Assembly: GCF_043641665.1 (NCBI RefSeq)
Contig: NC_092193.1
Coordinates: 5,732,001-5,796,000 of the forward strand
Direction of reading: 5' to 3'
From: Enoplosus armatus
Taxonomy: Eukaryota; Chordata; Actinopteri; Centrarchiformes; Enoplosidae
DNA length: 64,000 nucleotides
Shown: in pieces, positions 6,201 through 60,200 of the stretch
Numbering within the stretch: position 1 is the first letter of the stretch
How the letters are laid out: every line of letters begins with the position of its first letter
The notes under the pieces: generated by a model
Database searches by the model: none
The model's input: only the letters and a program-made list of their open reading frames with translations
What the model was told of the DNA's origin: nothing
Program-made: the position numbers and the translations under genes

Positions 6201-9200
6201 TTTGGCAATTACCTAAAACCATTAGTTTCTTTTCTAGTGTAGCCCATCAAGAACTGCAGCTGGTGAATAAAAATTCAAATGGTAAGAGAAAATACACTTC
6301 ACCCTCTAAAACAGGGTTTTGATCTGTAACTGTGCACTCTGTGATTTTACAGCAATATAAAAACCTTTGCATGACAAACACTTGGGCTTTTGTAGTGCTT
6401 GAGGAGCCTTCCATGCTGACCTTTCCACTCACACCCTCTGGGGCAACAGGAGAACTGCAAACTGAGCTGTCAGTGACTAAGTGTGGTACTGACTCAGAGG
6501 CCTTACAGTGTGAGCAGAGCTGCAGGAATCGACAGGATTGTGACAGCATCCTACATGGCTACAACCTACTGCAGGTGCTCAGTGAAGCAGAGTGGATCAA
6601 TCTCCCCTAACAGGACATGAATGAAAATCAATGCACATGACACAATTTATTCAACGGCTGCCGGTGGTTTGAAAATCCTACAAGCAAAACGTTCAAACGC
6701 GTCAACTATGTTTAACCTCGAATCCCTTCATTAGTTACAGACACCGTCCTTTTACACTACGCAAAGCTCTGGTGACCTTGTACAGCATTGCTCTGCTTCA
6801 AGGCAAACTGTAAATCTGTCTCTGCAGCAGTGGTACCAAAACATACTCCTGCTTGCTTTCTGTACTACAGAGTGACTCTGATTCAAATGTAAGGTCTCTG
6901 CAAAAGAAAGCATGCTGATTTCCTCAGATAAACAGATGATCTGTGCATTAATCTGTTTGAGGGAAATGAGCAGGACTTGGCTGTGCTTCTCAGCACTCTG
7001 GACTCCCTCCAGGTGTCCAGGGACAAGCCTGGTGTTCCATTGCCACCTACTGGGCCCAAGGTCCACTGACAAACACTGGTGCCAAATGAAAAGCCGGCCA
7101 GGGCAATAGTGTTGCTATGTTAATGACTGATAATCAAGGACAGCCTTCTGGTAGGTAGAGGGAACTGTAAAACTAGACAGAGCTGAAAGATGCAAATACA
7201 AGATGTTCTGTGTATACATCATTAGTCATGTCAATTCTCCATATTGAGCAACTGTAAAATGCCTAGTCATGCTTCCCTAAAAATGACTCCTCACTGTATT
7301 GATCTGAGCCTTCACAAATTCTCCTTACTCAGCAGAAACCTAAAACTTGGCATGTCACAGACCTTGATCGAATTACGTTGAAATACGAGAGCAGTGAAAT
7401 CTTATTCTATAGTCAATCTCCAAATTTGAAACGATCACCAATACTGGTGTCAAAGACAAAGGGACCTCAGCTGATGATGTCTCCAAGCCCCCACAGCCCT
7501 CTGCCCCTCCTCCTATGATGATGCATCATGAATCAGCTGCCCTGCCACAGTGCAGTTAGCAGTGCCCGACTGAGCGCAGCATGGGACCTGTCCACAGACA
7601 TCAACATCCCATCTCGCATGACAACTGTCAACAACACAAGGAATAAAGCCTGACACTGAAAAATCATTTCCCCCTGAAAAAGAAAAAAAACAACACACCA
7701 TATCCTCATCTTACTGAGAAAACAGAGGCAATCAGAGGAGTAATTTTAACATCCAATCCCTGGACAATTGGCAGCTAATTCACACAATCACAGCACCAGA
7801 TTGAAGGTGGAAATTAAATGCTGAAACATGTAAAACCTGAACAATAAGACAGGAGCTACAGTTGGATGCTCACTGATTTTCCCATAACAAATGAAAGACT
7901 CCAAAAATAAATGTGATAATTAAACATTCTGTCTATGCGTTGGTGGTGTAAAAACCCAGTTACACTTGTATGCCAATTCCATGTTTTCTTTCATTTGTTT
8001 TTGGAAGTAAGGGATGAGTGCCTGCTAACCAAAAAGGCTAACAATGATTTCCCCCCCCCCCCTTACATTTACATATAAAATAGACAAATATAAGTCAAGT
8101 CATAAGTCAACGTAGCCACCATGACGACACCCATTGGTTTGTGGACTACCGTTTTGCAGCCTCAAGTTTGGCATTTTGGCCGTCGCCATTTTGGTATTTA
8201 AATGAAACAATCTAAAAGGTTTAGAGGAGAAAAATAACTCATGAACATATTCAACCTGTGAGGAGGGGGTCACACCAGAGCCAAAAAGGTTGAGAACTAC
8301 TGAAGTAGCTTAAATAATCAGGACACAAGCATAGTTTTGGATACAATAAGACTGATTCTCCTACGTATTTCACACTAAGCACTTTCAAAACATCATAATA
8401 TTCTTGGCACATATAAATCCTCCTCAACTCAAATGCATCTGTGGTTCATTCAAAACCAAAGACCATAAGTAACGCAATGATCACAGCATACAGTGAACAA
8501 CATGTGTGAGAGCTACATCAACAAAAGATGAGGAGAGCGCAGAATCCCCGGGGAGCTTCCACATACTCTTTGTTGTGTTTAAGAGCCAGGTGGTCCGACT
8601 CAAAGTAATACACGTCTGGCTCCTCCTCTTCCTCCTCCTCCTCTGCAGCGTGGCTCTGTGTCAGCTCCTTGCTTCTCTCGGCCTCTTTGCCCTCCACAGG
8701 CCCACCATCCTCACCACCTGCCCTGTCCCCAGTTTCCACAGAGACCAGCTCCTCACAGGAGGGGCCAACAGAGTCTGAGGGAGCAGGTTCCTCCACCATA
8801 GGACAATCCTCCTCCAGCCCAACCACCACCTCCCCCTCTTCCCTCAAGGGACCATTGTCTCTGGGAGGAGAGCTGAGCTTGGAGGAGGAGGCCTTGCCAC
8901 CGGTGGCAGCCCTCCTGGGTGAAGTCCGCAGGGTGTATCTGTGTTCGTAGAGCTCTGTGAAAGAGGGGGGCGTGCTGGATATTGAGGGGTTGCACCCTGG
9001 CTCTGTGGGGGAGGGGGTTGTTGCTAGTGGGGGTGTAGTTTCTCCTGAGTTGCTGTTGTTGTTGTTGATTGGACTACTGTTTATGTTGATGGTCGTGGAG
9101 GAGGTGGAGGCAGCAGCTTCCTGCACTGGTGTTAGCGGCCGGCCGTTGGTGTCATTCTCACTCTCCATCACCTGCTCCTCGTGGGCCAGACACAACGAGT

Positions 9201-10383
9201 CGCCCACCACGTCAACCTCCACCTCCTCCACCTCCTGCTCCTTGGCCACTATCAACTCAGGGACAGGATCCTCTGGAACAGCCTCAATTGTCTGCGCAGA
9301 TGAGGCTGGCGATTCCCCTGAGCCAGAGACCTCCACCTGCACAGGGACAGAGTTTCTACAAGGCACAGCAGGGTCAGGGGATGAGGGAGCCCCCGTCTGA
9401 CTACCGTTGAGCAGAGACGGGCAGTTGGTGGCAGAGGTGGGATTTGCACTAGGCTCTTCAGTCAGTGTGCTAGGTTCCTCTGCTTTATTCTCTTTGAGTC
9501 CATTCGAGGCCTTGTGAGCATTTGGGGGCTGAGCTGCCCCCTCACACTCCACATGGCCATCCTCTGCCTTCCCACCTGTCAGCTCACAATCCTCTTTACT
9601 GAGGACAGGTGAGGCAGGAGCTGTGTTAGCAGAGTTTTGGCTGGGAAGTTCTTCACAACTGTTGTCCTTGTTAGGCTCTGGGACAGAGACTGGACTTTCA
9701 GGTTTCAAAGGCTCAGGGTCCTCCTCGTGTCCCTGAGACTCTCCAGAGCGGGAGCACCGCTTGGCCCTTTTGATTTGAGGACAGGCATCCCGCGCCCCCT
9801 TCACTCTATCACAGTTCTCAGGACTAATGTCTTTTTCTAAACAGGACACGCCCCGCTTCCTGGAGCTGGTCCATTGCTCCGCCTCAGCTGGAGAAGCATT
9901 TGGGTCAGTTACCTTTCCTTGCAATGAGGCCTGCTGCTGGCCATCCTGCTGTGTGTCCTGCTTCGCGTCCTGCTTTGACTCCTGCTTGGAGTCCTGCTTT
10001 GACTCCTGCTTAACGTCTTGCTTTGACTCCTGCTTAACGTCTTGCTTTGACTCCTGCTTAACGTCTTGTTTGGTGTCATGCTTCGACTCCTGCTTGCCGT
10101 CCTGCTTCGACTCCTGCTTACCCTCTTGCTTCGACTCCTGCTTGCCCTCCTGCTTGCCGTCTTGCTTCGACTCCTGCTTGCCGTCCTGCTTCGACTCCTG
10201 CTTGCCGTCCTGCTTCGACTCCTGCTTCTTCTTGGGCGAGCGGGCCCTAGTTGGCGGAGACACGGAGGTCTCCTCCGGCTGGGCGATGCTGCGGTTCCTG
10301 AGGGTTCGACCACAAAAGTTCTCATCCAATCCATTGAGCCCCACTGACGACCTTGTGACACGCGAGGAACGGGACGCGGCCAT
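1348..10383 (-). CDS. zzz3: zzz3, ZZ-type zinc finger and SANT protein (partial, 3' end outside)
   Basis: ZZZ3 is a chromatin subunit of the ATAC histone acetyltransferase complex; in the known protein a C-terminal ZZ finger reads the histone H3 tail. The N-terminus read here ([19 protein letters not shown]) is nearly the human sequence as I remember it. Eight coding exons are visible: 8567-10383, 5791-5929, 4498-4645, 4273-4385, 3136-3207, 2664-2765, 2078-2173 and 1348-1497, giving 879 codons in one unbroken phase. The order is a disordered acidic N-terminal half, a coiled region ([15 protein letters not shown]), a conserved block ([18 protein letters not shown]), then a Myb/SANT domain. The last exon seen ends after DPSADDS at a GTCAGT donor. 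The ZZ domain (about 75 residues in human) must lie left of base 1, because I found no matching exon in 1-1347. The human protein is about 903 aa; the fish one is longer owing to an N-terminal repeat. Confidence 0.95.
3534..3920. mobile_element. Non-autonomous hAT-like MITE, 387 bp
   Basis: The element is bounded by a perfect 8-bp target duplication, CTGTCTAA, at 3526-3533 and 3921-3928. Its left end starts CAGGCCTCAGTGG and its right end, reverse complemented, starts TAGGCTTGGGCAATA, an imperfect short terminal inverted repeat (5 of 7). Both halves also carry a GTATACC/CCGTATACC motif in inverted arrangement. An 8-bp duplication and a CAG-like terminus are typical of hAT transposons. It has no transposase ORF. 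It sits in the zzz3 intron between exons 5 and 6. Confidence 0.8.
4273..5929 (-). CDS. zzz3: zzz3 exons 3-5: coiled and conserved middle region
   Basis: Exon 3 (5791-5929) encodes a predicted helix, [17 protein letters not shown] through EQLQKR. Exon 4 (4498-4645) encodes [20 protein letters not shown] and the basic stretch [14 protein letters not shown]. Exon 5 (4273-4385) encodes [18 protein letters not shown] and ends NGRQAQ. Junction phases are 2, 0, 1, 0, all consistent. The exon 4 donor reads CAAG|GCATGT, a GC donor. The only nearby GT (five bases further on) breaks the frame, so the intron 4386-4497 is interpreted as GC-AG. Confidence 0.92.
5600..5762. repeat. Interspersed repeat ending GGTGTACCTAATAAAGTGG
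   Basis: The right end, GGTGTACCTAATAAAGTGG (5736-5755 region), is the inverted counterpart of the start of a second block near 60590 (CCAGTTTATTAGGTACGCCC). I recognise this terminus as a widespread vertebrate DNA-transposon-like repeat. It ends just downstream of zzz3 exon 3. Internal sequence is AT-rich with no ORF. Confidence 0.5.
5930..8566 (-). other. zzz3: zzz3 intron 2 (2.6 kb)
   Basis: The intron separates the large N-terminal exon from the coiled-region exon. It contains the repeat block at 8101-8303. Open frames of 92-106 codons exist on both strands near 6250-7070, but they have no family resemblance and no splice sites that join zzz3 in phase. Confidence 0.6.
8101..8303. repeat. 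Interspersed teleost repeat fragment
   Basis: Two repeat-like blocks lie here. The first (8101-8215) reads TAGCCACCATGACGACACCC through GGCCGTCGCCATTTTGG, which I recognise as a common fish repeat. The second (8268-8303) is GGGGGTCACACCAGAGCCAA followed by AAAGGTTGAGAACTAC, sharing its end with the MITE at 13528-13844. A 12-C run precedes them at 8051-8062. There is no coding content. Confidence 0.55.
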
Positions 10384-10448
10384 ACTACGGCGTGTGCCTA
10401 CAGTCTCCTCATCCTGGTGCTCTCTCCCCTGCAGCAGAATGTGGGCAC
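8567..10448 (-). CDS. zzz3: zzz3 exon 2: start codon and disordered N-terminal half
   Basis: This large exon has its acceptor (TTTTGCAG) just above 10448 and a GTATGT donor below 8567. The start codon at 10383-10381 is chosen because MAASRS matches the human N-terminus. The 65 nt before it are 5' UTR and contain a 4-codon upstream ORF (ATG AGG AGA CTG TAG). The exon encodes about 605 residues. It begins with a conserved 38-residue block, then a KQES/KQDG tandem repeat (residues about 53-147). A long Ser/Pro/Glu-rich region follows, including an Asn run, then the conserved [14 protein letters not shown] motif, an eight-Glu run, and the conserved [17 protein letters not shown] at the end. The following codon is split across the intron (GA|T), giving KHNKDYQRLL as in human. 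Composition suggests it is mostly disordered. Confidence 0.93.
9943..10227 (-). repeat. zzz3: In-frame 24-nt minisatellite in zzz3 (KQES/KQDG)
   Basis: About twelve copies of a 24-nt unit encode the octapeptide QESKQDGK with small variants (QDVK, QDSK, QDAK, QEGK, HDTK). The tetrapeptide KQ(E/D)x is the basic period. It replaces a short linker in human ZZZ3. Because unit length is a multiple of three and stops are absent, the repeat is also open in several other frames on both strands, creating long but spurious Cys-rich and Ser/Arg-rich ORFs. Confidence 0.95.
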
Positions 10449-12618
10449 CTGCAAAACACACACAGATATATGCACTGTATTAAGCCAAAATAATCACTGA
10501 AAACTGCAAACCTTTACAGCTCAGTGGTTACACCAAAGCACTACCTTTGCACCAGCTATAGGTTTGATTGGTTTCAACAGCCAGCCAAGCTAAAAATGAA
10601 ATCAACAGTACCTTGGGGTGTTTCAAACAAAAGCATTCAACAAAAGACCTGTGTTAAATATCGCTCGGGTCATTTCTCAGATCACACCAGAGGGGTATTG
10701 ATTTCTCCTGTCATTGTAGCTAAGCAACACCTTCTGTCCACAGGCAAAACTATGTCTTATCCCAGGTCTGTACAAATTACAGCCCTTCCACCTACATTTT
10801 AAAAAGGTGGAAGATCTTATACTGGCACAAGATAAAACAGAAACAATAAGGTCCAATCTTCCATCTAGCCTAAGAGACCAATCACACAGTCTCTTTCGAC
10901 ACTTCGCAAATGTCACAGCTTTGAGGCTCATCTGTATGTGCTTTGTAACTCAAGAGATAAAGGTGACTACAGCGCAGCAAGCATTTTAAGTAATGGAAAA
11001 GCCCCCAAAGCTGGAAAGCAGATGATTGACAAAAAGGTAGACTACCTACATTAAAACCAAAAATAATAGCAAACAAGCAATCATACAGAATGTGTGTATG
11101 TTTCAGTAAGGGAATATTTATTTCCTTCCTGCAGAGATTACTGCTTGTTCTGTCACACAAAGAATAAATATGGTTTAGTGGTTGACTGACACAGAAGATA
11201 CACTGTAATTCTTACACCCAATTCAGCAGAGATAACACTGCGGACATAGGTGTGTCATCACACACTGTAGGCTATTTATCTCTTTGTAACTGGTGTGTCA
11301 GAGGACTAACGGGCTGCAATCCCTCCACAACTTATCAGAACGTACAAAAATTGAAATGCTCTGACAACAAGAATCCTACACAAGGCTTACAGGCTTAAAG
11401 TGTGGACAACCATAGAGGCTTAGCACATGACGATTCACTTCCTGACACAATTTAAGGGACAACAAAGCCATCCCAAACTCGCTCTGTGTGTCGCCTGAGG
11501 TATCCCGCAGAAGAAGTACATCACTGTGCATCAGAACAGAAATCCTGGCTTACAGTGTCAAAATTAACACAATTCAAATGCTACCAGGCACTAATAGTCA
11601 ATCTTGGATATCTTATTCTATACTAAATAATCAATTTCACAGATAGTCTTCAGACACTAAAAATTCAAATGTAATCTGGGTCAGACAATCTATCATAAAC
11701 ACTATAATTTCACTCAAGACAGCTTTACTTTACATTTATTTCACTCACATCAAGGTTACTATTGAGGCAACAGACCTTGATTAACAGAGCTGGGTTAGTC
11801 ATCAACATATATAAATACATACATATATATAGCCATCTTATTCTGGTTTCTCTCAGTATTTTGATGCTGCACATAGCATAAAGGTCATAGAGTGAAGCGG
11901 TTACAAAGCAATGTATTTAAAAAGAAAAAGGAAAACGGGAAGGTGAGGGAAGACTAAAACCTTGATAGCAAAGTAGCTTTCATTTTACAAATAACACCTC
12001 AAATAATAGAGATTACGTTAACGTTGCTTTGGAAATTCATCGATGTGAAGAACAATAAAGAATACACAAACTAAGTTGCTCCATTTTCCAGACATTAACC
12101 AACAACAAAACAACTCATTTTAGTGGGCAGGTCTGCGACTGTAACCTTAATCATCTATAAATCTTAATCTAGGTATACAGTAATTAGTAATTATTAAACA
12201 TGCAGTTAATGAAAGCAGAGGGAAATTTTAAGGTTACATCGGGAGGATAAAGAAAACGGCCTGCCCTGGTTAGAACACGTGTATTCATCAAAATTCCCAA
12301 TCAACACACACTTACACACAGTCACACAACTGAACTGAAGTATCCTCTAGATGATAGCATCAAGTAATAAATCTAACAACAGACGACAATGAAGACAAGA
12401 CGTGGTAAAGGTCGTATTAAAGTGACATTCTGGGGAAGATGATCTCACTTGGTATTGCAGAAGATGAGACATAGTCATAAAGACATTATTGCATCAATTA
12501 GCATTGCGGACATGGAGCTCATTTACATGAATTCCAAGTACATCAATCCGTCGGCCGACCTCTGTCATAACTGATTTAAAAGCTCTCTGTTGCCTTTCTT
12601 CGGACAATCCCTCCCTCC

Positions 12619-49415: not shown

Positions 49416-51163
49416 GGGACGGGAACTCGTCTCCAAACAGACCCCGGGTCATCAAACACTACACTCGTGGAAATCTCAGCATTTATTCTGGGGTGAGTTC
49501 ACACCGACTGTCGGACCAATCACATCTCCCATCATGTTGTGTGCCCTCACCGAGGATCCATATAACTGTATTAGACGTCTGCCTTCACACCTGGTCATTG
49601 CCTCCTCTCCCAGCCCCCCTTTTCACTGTGCCATGGCAGTGCACGTTAGTTATAAAATATCATAGCAATAATATCTGTAATTTAAATTTGCTGTGGGACT
49701 AACAGGTAGGTGTTACGCTGTGTAAATGAAGGTATTTTACTATACAGCTAAATGATGCAGGATTTATTTTTTAGACGTCGTAGTTTTACCTGTATACATC
49801 AATAGATATGTGATCAGCTTCAAACATGCAGTAGTATGAATACCAATGTCGTGTAATCAACTTTACCAGATAGAGATTAGATTAGATGTATTTCCACATC
49901 CGAATGAGCATCAGCAATGCAAAACCATTAAATGTACTTTGTGTTTTGGTTACAAGCACATGTTGCACAGGGAAATCCCTGAACAGAGGGACATGCAATG
50001 TAAGATGTGTTGACTTGATCGGTCATTGTTACTTAAAAGGGAAAGTTTTTTGTTGTTTTTTTTGGCACCAGGACTCAAACTTTCATGCAATATCTAAAAT
50101 GAAGCCTGGCACATGCATCCTACAAGGCCCTTAATCCCTTCGTACCGTCAGCTACAGGAAATAAAAGATTATACATCAGTGTTGCATAATCTTACAGCTG
50201 TTAAACAAGTTGTGCCACTCTGTTCTTCACGTCGGGCAAACACGCAAGAAGCCTTACTATCAATACACATACTCGAGCCTCGTCTTCATCACTGTACGTC
50301 AGTCTGAAAATCACTACAATGCAAACTATTGTCTGCTCTGCTGATCAGTCACTGCCGTGCACAACATGAAAGCTTTGAGCAGCAGAGTTACTGCGCGAAT
50401 AAACAAGTCGAAGAGTTAATTCCACAAAAGCTAGAAACATTTTGGGGACATTGTCAGTTGTCGTCAGCCCTTTTTACAGGATTTCTGTAAACACCCACAT
50501 GCAGATTAGTACTTCTGGAATCTTCCTAAAGTAATTCCAATGTAAGTGATGGGGGATAAAAAGATCTGTGGTGCAAAGTAACGAAGTACATTTACTCAAA
50601 ACTCCACTTAATGTTATTCTGAAACTGTCCATTCTGCATAAATAGTACTTTTTACACTGGTACTGCTATGACCACCGATCACCAGATTAATCAACTATTG
50701 ATTTTTAAAGCAAAACTGGCAACAACCAAATAAGCTCGCTGGTTCCAGATTCTTAAATGTGAATATTTTCTGGTTTTCTTAATGGTCTATAGAGGCATTT
50801 TAACATCACCATGGGCTCCAGTAACTTATGCTGGGCTTTTTGTGCTACTCTATAGATTAAATTATCAAAAAGAAAGTTAGTTAGATGGTTTTGGATCTAC
50901 AGACTAAGGATTTTGTCCCCCAGCTCTTTAAATGGAATCACATTAGAAAGGGACCTTTACACGGCCGGTATCAACAGGAGGAACATAAAGCTTCAATGTT
51001 CTTATGGTCATGAGTATCGTTTCAAGAAAGACTTTAAGATGGATCTTATTTCAGGGAAGAAAGTTTTACATTTGTGAGTTCACATTGTGTATAAATTAAG
51101 TAAATAAAGACGATAAAAATGTGTTGAGTTTTTGTTGTATTCTTCTTGATAATGTAAAATAAA
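49416..51163 (+). terminator. miga1: miga1 3' UTR with two AATAAA signals
   Basis: Non-coding sequence follows the miga1 stop. Poly(A) signals AATAAA are at 51103-51108 and 51158-51163. A fragment at 50575-50615 (AAGTACATTTACTCAAAACT) resembles the fish repeat also seen in inverted form near 62060-62115. The convergent fubp1 poly(A) signal starts 33 bp beyond the second site. Confidence 0.65.
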
Positions 51164-54457: not shown

Positions 54458-57248
54458 TCACTGGAACCCTGTAAAAGCCTGAGGGAGCAAGGGGGGTTAG
54501 AGCACAAAAGAATTGGGTATTCAGTGGATGTGGCGGGCAGATTCTTATAGGGGGTGTACCTGAGGGGCTTGTGGTGCTGCACCCATCGTCTGAGGGTTGC
54601 CTGTGCCGTAGTAAGCGGCCTGCTGACGGTAGTACTCCGCCCAGGCAGCGCTGTAGTCTGGCTGGCCTCCAGGTTGGGAGGCTGCTGCTGCAGCCGCTGC
54701 TGTGGCCTGAGGGGCCGCTTGACCTGGAGGGTAAAAACAACAGAGAACCCGTTAGTGCATAGGCCCGTCACTTGAGGTTATTAGATGTTTCTTATGTAAA
54801 TGCTTTATCGTTGTTTACTTTAGTGTGGACAATAACCAACAAGTCAAAATAAGTTTTTCATTCAAACTTTACATACATCGCGACATATTCAGCAATAATT
54901 AGAGTTTCAACTGCTTCTAATCTCACAGTAACAGTTAAGTGTTTGTAACATTTATGAGAAGGCGAACGAACCCACCACCACCTTCTCTTGGTGGCAGGTC
55001 AGAAACCTTCTGCCTTTCTGTTGGGCGGCTGAGAGAGCAGGTACTCTACTACAGAGGGCTGCTAGAGGAGCACAGCCGCCCTTAAACATTAAAAAACAGG
55101 GGAACACTTCATACTACTGTACATCAGCCATTTTATGGATGTTATTCTTTGTTAAAGAGGCAACTCTGCCTATAACTAGTGTCTCTACTTAGGGACATTC
55201 CTATTTCTAGCTAGGACAGATTCTGAATCACACAAGTACAATGTTTCTATCACACATCCTTACTTTTAAAACACCAGAATCACATTTAATTCCCAAATCA
55301 CTTTCCTCACATATATTGCAAACTGTGTTGCACTGTTTTGAGGTTTGACTGAAATATTACTACCATTGTTGCAACTCCAGTTTCCTGATCTGATTGTTTC
55401 CATCATGAAAACATAAGGCAGCGCTGTCATAATGGTGCAGTTCAGTGGTTTAACCTTATAAATGTACAAAAAGAACAGTTCAATGTATACGTTACAACTT
55501 CACTTATCTGTAGCTGAGCGATCGAATTTGAAATTAAGGCTTCAGAATGGGAAGTAAAATATTCAGTAAATGAAGTGTGATCCCTGTATGAAGAGTACAA
55601 ACCTTGTTTCTTGTAATACTCCTCCCAGGCTTTCGTGTAGTCCTGAGGTTGTTGACTCTGTTGACCTGCAAAGAGAAGGGAAAAATGTGTCAATGCATCC
55701 AAATGTTGAATGAAATCAAACAACTTCACAACATTGATCCTACATTGCATCATTTAAACTCTACACACATTCAGTAGCAGTAACACATTCATGGCACGTG
55801 GCAAAACTCTGCCATCAGTGTTGATAAAACCCTAAGATAAGTCTACATAATAAGCTTCTCTAAGCTCATAAAAAAGGTGGTTCTGTGTCGACAGCTCAGT
55901 CCTGTAAAGTGTTGCAGTCTAAACAGCACAGGCGTCAAATGTCAAACCAAGTGGAGGCACGCTCCACAGCAGGCCAGCAATACTGAAAAATACCCAGACC
56001 TGAAAAAGAAGCCGATTGAAAGCCCAGTAGCTGTTTAGACTGTCTTGTGTTAATAGGTGTACACTGAAGCTACGTTCGTATACCCATTTTCTTGTAATAT
56101 TCGTCCCAGGCCTTGGAGTAATCTGCCTGTCCACTCTGACCTGCAGCCTGTGGGTCACCTGTTAAAAAAAACGGTACTTGTAATTAGTGAATCATTCTCA
56201 GCCGTTTGTCCTCCACCTGCCTGCGTCGAGCTGTCAGCCTAGGGGGGGGGGGGGGGGGGGGGGCTATCCTGTCCTGGGGTAATATAAAAGTAAAAAAAAG
56301 GGTGCTCTGCAAGAGCAAGGTCATTTAAAAGGTGAAACCAAACCAACTCGTCTCCTGTTAGCGACACCAGGAAGACACGAGCATAGTACACTTCTAAAGT
56401 AAAGCTAGTAAACTACACTGCTCTACGCTTGTCTTATTGGTTTCTGCTCCTTCTAGAAGCACAGACGCTTCTTCTAATTGAGAAACGCTTCAGTTACCTT
56501 GGCCGTTGGTCTGAGTCGTGCCAGGAGCTCCACTTGTCGGGGTCATGGGAGCTTGCGGCTGCTGGCTGTACTGAGCATAGTAGGCTGCCCACGCTGCTGC
56601 GTTGGCATCGGCTGCGGCTTTATCTGGACACAATTCGGCTTTGTTACCAAACAAAGGCCAAAATTAAAAACTGTAAGCTTTTTCAATTTCCATCAAATGT
56701 GAAATGTACCAGCTGATAGTGGGTACTTACTTGGATCAGGTTGTCCCTGTTGCCAGTGTGGGTAGCCATTGCCCCATCCCTGAGGCTGGTATGGTGCAGG
56801 TGGACCACTGATGAGAGAAAATGAACCACCATAAACTTGGGACGCGTTTGTGTTTTGTCTATGATTGTATAAAACTATGGTCTCCATTGTGTTACTCCAA
56901 AGTCTTTGTACGTGTTCAGGTCTCAGATAGTTTAGGGTTAGGGTTATACATCAGCTTCTCAGCGTGGTGCATGAGTTTTCATCACGGACCATACACATTC
57001 TTAACTGCACCCAAATGACTTTGCCGTGTCCATTAATTCTTGTTATCTCAACAAGCTTAAAAATATGTGGTAAAAACAAACGGCCACTATACTTACTGTG
57101 GTCCCGGAGGTCCCTGATTATATGGTCCAGGGTTGTACGGACCCATGGGAGCACCAGGGGGTCCAGGTGGTCCAGGAGGACCATGTGGGCCCGGACCTCC
57201 ATGTGGACCAGGGGGGCCGTGTGGGCCTCCCATTGGAGTGACTGGTCC
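54458..57248 (-). CDS. fubp1: fubp1 exons 14-20: Pro/Gly region and Tyr-rich activation motifs
   Basis: Exons are 57097-57248, 56731-56807, 56498-56623, 56084-56158, 55603-55665, 54560-54723 and 54458-54478. Exon 14 is Gly/Pro/His-rich. Exon 15 encodes [18 protein letters not shown]. Exons 16-19 carry the Tyr-rich motifs [37 protein letters not shown] and [13 protein letters not shown], which in human form the transcription activation domain. The final exon as modelled adds AFTGFQ and a stop. Reading through the exon 19 donor instead gives VHPL and a stop, so the C-terminus is uncertain. Confidence 0.88.
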
Positions 57249-60200
57249 CTGAAAACAATCACATCTCAGTCAGTAAACAAGCTTCCAAGAGATAAATGTC
57301 TCCATGGGGGTTTATAATCAAACTGTAATGTCATACCCCAATTTTCTCCTCCACCAGCTGCCTGGCGTAGTCGATCTGTTGAGGGGAGCCCCGAACTGTG
57401 AACATTTTGATGTTGGGATCAGCGTTGGGTGGAGGATTCCTCTGTAACTCGATCCTGGCTCCAGACTGTTGGCTGATGCCCTTGATTGTCTCACCACCTG
57501 AAGAGTTCAGAAACAAACATTTACCTCTAATGAATTCACCAGGCTCCCTCCTTAAGAGGAGCCTGGAGGACTAAACAGCAGACTGAGTAAACATCTAGTG
57601 GCCCTGGAATACTAAGTTTTGTTTGTCTATGGGTCTTGTTTGTCCATTTACTTGGTTTTGTTTTCAATTTCTCCTTCTATCCACATTGTTTTGTCTAAGT
57701 CTCCTGATGTAATACTTTTTTCTTCATGTAACCACAAAATGAATAATCATCAACTTGGGACATGTTTGTTGTGTCGAGTAATCGTCCGATTGTATAAAAC
57801 CATGGTCTACATTGTGTTACTACAAAACCTTTGAATGTGTTCAGGTCTCAGATAGTTTAGGGTTAGGGTTATACATCAGCTTCTCAGCGTGGTGCATGAG
57901 TTTTCATCACAGACCATACACATTTTGTTTTCAATTTCTCCTTTTAGCAACTTTTTATCCAAGACCTTGTTTGGTTTCCACTTTGTTGAAAGTTTAAGTA
58001 ACATAGCCTTCCAATAAAAAAAGCCCTGCTGCTGAGCGGTCACTTGCCTTTTCCAATGATGAGGCCGGTCTTCATGGTTGGGACAGTGAAGGTAAACTCC
58101 TGCAGGCCACCAGGGGGGCCCATGTTCCAGTTCCCCTGCCCACGACCACGACCTCTGCCACCACCATGTCCTGGAGGCCCGCCAGCCTGGACGCTCCTCA
58201 GCAGGTCAGATATGATTTCTGCTGCGTGCTGAGCCTGATCAGGGGGGCCCATGATCTGTGCTATCCTGTCTGGTGTGCTGCCATCATCTGGAGAGAGAAG
58301 ATAGGACGATTAGAGACTATCGAGACAGTTTGACGTTTGTCTAGTAATCGACTCGATTGTATATAACTATGGTCTCAACCATGTTACTCCAAAGTCTCCG
58401 TAAGTGTTCAGGTCTCAGATAGTTTAGGGTTAGGGTTATACATCAGCTTCTCAGCGTGGTGCATGAGTTTTCATCACAGACCTAAATGCCTCTAAATGAC
58501 TTGGCCAGTTATTTTCATAAATGAGCAACCTTATTCACTCACCTGGTTTAAACTGAATCCTGACGCCGGTGTCATTCTGTATTTTCTTGATCATCTCTCC
58601 ATTTCTGCCAATAACAATTCCTACTGCAAACCGGGGAACGGGAACCTAAATGACGGCAGAAAACAAAACTTAAGTAAAGAAATAGATTCAAACCCTGGTC
58701 TCCAAAATGATAAATTAAACTGCTTATAACAAATACTCACATCCAAGGTATCTCCTCCGCCACCGCCTCCCCCTCCAACTCGTGAACCATACTCGCCCCT
58801 CTGCTCCCTGAAGCCTTGATCTCTGATCAGTTCCATCACCATCTCTTTGGCTTGCTGAAAAGACAGTACATCTCATTACAGTACTACTCCACTGGTCTCC
58901 ATGGAGACAAATAATGTGGCATAAAAAAAAGGACGTGTCTACTGGGGCTTACTTAACAAAAGGGGTGAAAGCAGAGATAGCTCATATATAATCAAACATA
59001 AAAAAAAGGTACATCTTAAGCTATCAGAGACTAACTAATGTTAGAAGTGCAATGGGCACACGGGCGAGGACCCACCTGAACTTTGAAGGGTTCTCCTGAA
59101 ATGCGGAGAGGCTTGTCTGCACCTGTGTTTTGGGGTCCGTCTTGGATCATGACCATCTTCACTCCAGCTCTTTCCTACAGGAAGAACAAGAAACATGCCA
59201 TCAGAGTGTTTGTGCCAAATGAGTTCCCTGCTTAACAGACCATCTGACTGTGGTCCCTATATCACCCTGCTACTCAAAAACTGACTGGACCCTCACCTGA
59301 AGGCTTTTGATGGTTTCTCCTCCCTTCCCAATGACAAGTCCTGCTTTAGAGGCAGGGACCATAATCTCCTGGACAGTCATTCCTGGGCCGTCGTTGTGGT
59401 TGAATGCTGGAGCCGGGCGGCCCTTCTCAACAATCTCTGTTAGTAGCCTCTTTGCCGCCCTGGTGGGAGAAAAATGATCAGTCTGAAATCCTTGACAAGG
59501 ACCCAACAAAAATGAGACACTTTGACACCCACTATAGTAGCAAATATATGGTACACAAGAAGTCATTGTGGGGTTTTTTCTCCCTCACAAAAAGCATCAA
59601 TCATTTTTGTAATTTTCCCAACATGTCTACGGACAACCCCGGCTCCAAAAATATGTACATGCTTTTAATACTAAAGGTTTTCGCCATTAAAACTTACTGG
59701 ATGGACTCTGGTGCTCCTGTTAATGTCACAGATCTATCTGGCATCCCTGCACTGTCTACAACGAAAACACAGAAAGAGCAGTTAATGCAAATGTTACAAC
59801 AAAACAATGTAATTTCTTAGTACTACTGAGATCCACAATATCAGCAAAGAGATCTAAACTTACCAGGTGCAATCTGTATTTTGCATCCAGACTCCTGCTG
59901 CAGACGTGATATTTGTTCACCTCCTCTTCCAATTACTAGGGGGGAGAAGTGTGTCAGCTCCAAATATTCAATATCAACAACACTAAACTGATGTTATTGT
60001 TGTGTTGGAACAAAAACTTACTGAATCCAACCATTCCATCAGGAACCTTGAATTCCTCTGATATTGACCTGAGAATAACAGAACAAATCAATGTGGGCTT
60101 TGCAATAAAAGTGGATAAGTGTGGATGACCAAAATATTTAAATGTAACTCTGGTATCTACCTTGGGGGGCCACCCATTCCTCCCATTGAAAAGGCTGGGG

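Follow-up and report, generated by a model that had tools for sequence, protein, structure and literature searches.

Three near-identical predicted box C/D small nucleolar RNA genes in introns of fubp1 of the fish Enoplosus armatus

In a 64,000-nucleotide (nt) stretch of the genome of Enoplosus armatus, a percomorph teleost (contig NC_092193.1 of assembly GCF_043641665.1, positions 5,732,001 to 5,796,000; hereafter the window), three introns of the gene fubp1 each contain a nearly identical sequence of 72 nt, which we call a core. We consider it very probable that the cores are intron-encoded genes for box C/D small nucleolar RNAs (snoRNAs), predicted to guide modification of the equivalent of G1328 of human 18S ribosomal RNA (rRNA), and that they were multiplied by duplication within fubp1. 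On the best reading of the sequence, the cores would encode an ordinary guide for 2′-O-methylation of rRNA that has been multiplied inside one gene. We propose fubp1 as a snoRNA host gene.

The snoRNA assignment was first made in an initial annotation of the window, whose coordinates, core length and orientation (minus strand, sense to fubp1) were recovered unchanged (Table 1). Each core contains the C box GTGATGA at core positions 6-12, the D′ box CTGA at 29-32, the degenerate C′ box CTGATGT at 37-43 and the D box CTGA at 65-68, and is closed by a terminal stem of GGTC and GACC; re-reading of all three copies returned the boxes and stem that had been described. First, the C (RUGAUGA) and D (CUGA) boxes joined by a terminal stem, which the box C/D class requires, are present in three of three copies. 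Second, the internal D′ and C′ boxes that characterize the class are likewise found in all three. Third, the cores lie in introns of a host gene and in the sense orientation, another feature of the class. As had been noted, the cores differ by 0-1 bases: none separates copy 2 from copy 3, and copy 1 departs from them solely at core position 5, between the stem and the C box. Folding closes the terminal stem in every copy, and in copy 3 the stem can be lengthened to 8 base pairs (bp).

Such an arrangement is rarely produced by chance. When both strands of the window were scanned for a C box, a D box and a stem, and then also for D′ and C′ boxes, four candidates satisfied the first pattern, and the three that also had D′ and C′ boxes were exactly these cores. 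In 40 first-order Markov simulations of 64 kb, the mean number of candidates with C, D and stem was 1.07, and that of complete candidates with all four boxes and a stem was 0.025 per 64 kb, with a maximum of 1. The fourth candidate (50176-50292, minus strand), which lacks D′ and C′ boxes, is at the level of chance. The pattern TGATGA-gap-CATGCACCAC-N-CTGA matched three times in the window and in none of 100 shuffled versions, and BLAST found no fourth copy of the core in the 64-kb window. Scans of viral collections with the core pattern gave no match. The box-plus-guide pattern matched nine stretches in a prokaryote contig collection (stated size, 257 billion bases) as against three in the 64-kb window; because about seven are expected from base counts, we read the nine, whose records were inspected by motif script only, as chance.

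The host was identified as fubp1 from its exons, one of which matches the FUBP1 KH structure 1j4w (E = 7.2e-41), while Pfam searches of the exon frames recognized KH_1 in three and FUBP_C in another. The copies occupy three of four consecutive introns, all sense to the gene; the short intron between those of copies 1 and 2 contains no core. Intron limits are the junctions as read from the sequence. The intron of copy 2 (57498-58047, minus strand) has an apparent GC-AG boundary (GCAAGT...CAG), which belongs to a rare class of splice sites.

Which RNA might these cores recognize? Guides were compared with a provisional human 18S rRNA sequence (1869 nt), in which the neighbourhood of G1328 was checked against fetched sequence, and with a provisional list of 38 known methylation sites. 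Positions 2-12 of the D′ guide pair with this sequence over 11 bp, comprising 10 Watson-Crick pairs and one G-U pair, such that position 5 faces G1328 (human numbering), where the D+5 rule would place the methyl group of Gm1328 or its equivalent. On the provisional sequence and site list, the cores thus have an antisense element of at least about 10 nt whose position 5 faces a methylated nucleotide, as is characteristic of the class. The G that precedes UGCAUGG has index 1328 in the provisional sequence, in agreement with the published number, and the target motif is also present in a fragment of eukaryotic 18S rRNA at L001. That fragment, 247 nt at one end of an IMG/VR contig (L001:4059-4305), probably reflects a chimeric assembly. 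No shuffled D′ guide in 1000 reached the observed score at any of the 38 listed sites and three in 1000 did so anywhere in 18S rRNA; in a first control, one of 200 reached it somewhere in 18S rRNA. The next-best place, in a provisional piece of 28S rRNA, offers 9 bp with one G-U pair. The most likely target predicted from the sequence is, in our view, the equivalent of 18S Gm1328. This site is listed as methylated, with known guides, in human, yeast and plants: extracts of PMC3511168 name plant snoR21 for Gm1272, human U32 for Gm1328 and yeast snR40 for Gm1269, and a table excerpted from PMC8817022 places Gm1271, Gm1328 and Gm1272 in one row.

Comparison with Rfam gave a divided answer to the family search that the initial annotation had suggested: the best family is indeed a C/D snoRNA, but no gathering score was reached. 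In a permissive search, the top family for each copy was snoZ221/snoR21b (RF00300), whose full-length alignment scored 36.5, 37.5 and 37.5 bits for copies 1-3 (E = 5.8e-6 to 1.1e-5), below the gathering score of 44 that marks membership. The RF00300 family comes from plants. It resembles the fish cores in its C box, in the guide UCAUGCACCAC before D′, which is above all what the two have in common, and in its D′ and D boxes; the fish cores differ from it in having shorter C-to-guide and D′-to-C′ distances and another D-side element. Because the scores lie below 44 bits and because a shared target and shared boxes could arise independently, we do not file the fish cores under RF00300. The second-best family, snoR117 (RF01423), scored 25.9, 25.9 and 23.4 bits against a gathering score of 42; it is also a C/D snoRNA, but its guide letters do not match. 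SNORD33/SNORD32 (RF00133) scored 20.1 bits, below its membership threshold of 44, and did so from a shifted register in which the fish D′ guide was laid on the D guide of the family. DLEU2_4, RNase_P, rli24, SNORD102 and other low-scoring matches were put aside as chance. The boxes, the stem, the sense placement in introns, the identity of the best Rfam match (below gathering score) and the fit of the guide to a conserved rRNA site together support the snoRNA reading with which the annotation began.

If the cores are expressed, the RNA would be released from spliced fubp1 introns, and a length of 72-75 nt would be expected, with the 5′ end near GGTC/TGATGA and the 3′ end close to CTGAGACC. Its C/D and C′/D′ motifs would be bound by the C/D core proteins, which are 15.5K, NOP56/58 and fibrillarin, and the guide before D′ would direct 2′-O-methylation of the 18S guanosine in helix 34 that is equivalent to human G1328. 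In function, such an RNA would correspond to yeast snR40, plant snoR21, human U32 and chicken GGgCD25. A parallel in organization is the chicken one, as described in the relevant passages of PMC2653536: GGgCD25 guides the same 18S guanosine (chicken G1286) through a 12-nt 5′ (D′) guide, and its two copies occupy separate introns of a single protein gene (KPNB1 introns 4 and 7). In contrast to the fish cores, it is 89 nt long and hosted by KPNB1. The same passages state that nearly all snoRNA paralogues of chicken are products of intragenic duplication, a picture that the fish genes would fit, and they term human U32A/B double guiders. Human U32A/B (SNORD32) also resembles the fish cores as a guide for 18S Gm1328 (extract of PMC3511168), but in the RF00133 model the similar guide stands before D, not D′. 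Yeast snR40, according to the portion of PMC5464676 that concerns it, guides Gm1271 in helix 34 of 18S rRNA; unlike the fish RNA as predicted here, it is also assigned 25S Um898, with Gm562 named as a further target. The three fish genes would be products of duplication within fubp1. A single conserved guide for rRNA methylation would then occur in differing hosts, namely KPNB1 in chicken, RPL13A in human (the host gene of U32A/B) and fubp1 here, with gain of copies within a host.

Several observations weigh against the snoRNA reading. No Rfam family reached its gathering threshold anywhere in the 64 kb. The folding z-scores of copies 1, 2 and 3 relative to shuffled sequences are -1.6, -2.2 and -3.8, and copies 1 and 2 fold little better than the shuffles. 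Vertebrate C/D snoRNAs usually lie about 70 nt from the 3′ splice site, a distance exceeded by all three cores (111, 346 and 123 nt). The predicted duplex with 18S rRNA has only 11 bp, guide position 1 being mismatched, and it was obtained with a provisional 18S sequence and site list, of which the neighbourhood of G1328 alone was checked against fetched sequence. Two protein-route searches for fish relatives, which started from the open frame extending into copy 2, returned no candidate.

Why are the cores so much alike? The adjoining 56 nt on the 3′ side, which were duplicated together with each core, show 7 differences in the pair 1-2, 8 in the pair 1-3 and 14 in the pair 2-3; the 7-8 differences given in the annotation hold for the first two pairs and not for the third. 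Only 1 of 72 core columns is variable, as against 14 of 56 flank columns (Fisher p = 3.3e-5, columns treated as independent). The cores may since have been held nearly identical while their flanks drifted. Alternatively, gene conversion among the copies, and not selection on each, might have made them identical, perhaps with one active gene only; we regard this as a real possibility, if less likely than not. The flanks of copies 2 and 3 are the most different (14/56), and yet these two copies are identical over 79 nt, 7 of which lie in the flank, as conversion would explain, and the single variable core column cannot separate the two causes. However, identity stops close to the core: it extends 7 nt further on the 3′ side in each of the three pairs, and on the 5′ side it either ends at the core or, in pair 1-2 only, continues for 9 nt; conversion tracts need not respect RNA ends. 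The additivity of the flank distances (7 + 8 versus 14) also argues against conversion. With three copies that have near-fixed cores and drifting flanks, selection and conversion can be tested against each other in related fishes.

We also considered that the D-box element might make the RNA a dual guide, with a second site at 18S U1728 (human numbering), a position outside the provisional site list. Positions 1-9 of the D guide pair with AUGGUUUAG through eight Watson-Crick pairs and one G-U pair, and this is their best place in the provisional 18S rRNA. Such a match is not significant, in that among 1000 shuffles of the D guide 77 find an equally good place in 18S rRNA and one does so at a known site; moreover, the U1728 stretch belongs to the provisional part of the 18S sequence, scans of fetched sequence for the 18S 3′ end having returned either nothing or four loci (L002-L005) without 18S context. 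Elsewhere, the D guide forms at most 7 bp with the provisional 28S pieces, U2 and U6. We therefore judge a second target improbable. Assignment to Um1804, the SNORD20 site, was dropped because the paired U has index 1728 in the provisional 18S rRNA.

How might the copies have multiplied? The 3′ flank of copy 1 is common to both other copies, and the distances between flanks nearly add up by way of copy 1; therefore, copies 2 and 3 appear to descend separately from an ancestor that resembled copy 1. Upstream, 24 nt are common to copies 1 and 3 (79%, E = 0.03). Copy 2 was probably inserted, leaving a 21-nt direct repeat: an exact repeat of this length brackets its segment, and the right-hand unit reaches the boundary (57924) of the homology to the copy-1 intron. 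Leaving aside the snoRNA copies and the coding repeats near 10 kb, no other exact direct repeat in the window attains 18 nt at a spacing of 40-600 nt, and the segment so bracketed looks like an insertion with a target-site duplication. Beside the left-hand unit lie 59 nt (57677-57735) to which nothing in the copy-1 intron corresponds significantly; a single out-of-order 11-nt match was found there (E = 0.065). A bracketing repeat of this kind is also what a retroposed insertion would leave, and vertebrates have mobile snoRNA copies, so that the three copies might be a functionless snoRNA-derived repeat or a set of pseudogenes. We think this quite unlikely, in that the boxes and the guide are intact in three of three copies while the flanks changed and no poly(A) tail was seen at the copy-2 segment.

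The D-side element has a further peculiarity. At core positions 45-59, all three copies contain UAACCCUAACCCUAA, which matches the telomeric C strand exactly over 15 nt, and TTAGGGTTAGGG occurs in the window only within the cores (56932, 57857 and 58424, plus strand). Conceivably the element pairs with the telomeric UUAGGG repeat RNA (TERRA), of whose repeats it is an exact complement, or mimics the telomerase template, in a second, non-ribosomal role. The match occupies guide positions 6-20 and not 1-5; therefore, no methyl group would be directed there by the D+5 rule, and the stretch is accounted for equally well if an idle spacer underwent microsatellite-like expansion, which makes such a role very unlikely.

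The kind of RNA, its target and its mode of growth are already known; within the reach of the searches, what is new is the host gene and the presence of three copies. The statement in the annotation that no snoRNA has been described in FUBP1 stands uncontradicted among the literature matches listed (subscription papers, supplements and snoRNA databases lying outside this coverage), and searches combining fubp1 with snoRNA, SNORD, intron or zebrafish yielded, among those matches, no report of fubp1 as a host or of a triplication. The main text of PMC6954239, on zebrafish snoRNA host genes, contains neither 'fubp' nor 'kpnb1' (its supplement was not covered). FUBP1 was reported in 2025 as a 2′-O-methyl-binding protein (main text of PMC12533644, which does not mention SNORD). 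A vertebrate Gm1328 guide placed at D′, as in RF00300, would on this reading lie in the gene of a 2′-O-methyl-binding splicing factor, with a telomere-complementary element kept in three copies, and one could imagine the host protein, the guides and the mark feeding back on telomeric RNA or on the splicing of fubp1, but this seems to us highly speculative and most improbable; so far, the methyl binding of FUBP1 and the predicted guides in its introns are a coincidence and not evidence of a circuit.

Table 1. Features of the three predicted snoRNA genes and their surroundings, in window coordinates.
Feature	Position	Strand	Remarks
snoRNA core, copy 1	56919-56990	-	72 nt; C at core position 5; RF00300 36.5 bits, E = 1.1e-5
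snoRNA core, copy 2	57844-57915	-	72 nt; RF00300 37.5 bits, E = 5.8e-6
snoRNA core, copy 3	58411-58482	-	Identical to copy 2; RF00300 37.5 bits, E = 5.8e-6
D′ guide region, copy 3	58455-58470	-	Core positions 13-28; same sequence in other two copies
C′-to-D region, copy 3	58419-58439	-	Core positions 44-64; holds UAACCCUAACCCUAA; no significant rRNA target
Intron of copy 1	56808-57096	-	289 nt; core 106 nt from 5′ and 111 nt from 3′ splice site
Intron of copy 2	57498-58047	-	550 nt; core 132 nt from 5′ and 346 nt from 3′ splice site
Intron of copy 3	58288-58542	-	255 nt; core 60 nt from 5′ and 123 nt from 3′ splice site
3′ flank, copy 1	56863-56918	-	Duplicated together with core
3′ flank, copy 2	57788-57843	-	Duplicated together with core
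3′ flank, copy 3	58355-58410	-	Duplicated together with core
21-nt direct repeat, left	57656-57676	.	Exact; brackets copy-2 segment
21-nt direct repeat, right	57923-57943	.	Exact; at boundary of homology to copy-1 intron (57924)

Elsewhere in the window, a frame of 653 amino acids (8518-10479) corresponds to ZZZ3, with 100% identity over 93% of its length to an Enoplosus armatus protein. Within this frame, at 9995-10150, there are short coding repeats, which form exact direct repeats 48-108 nt apart and have a Lys/Gln-rich translation.

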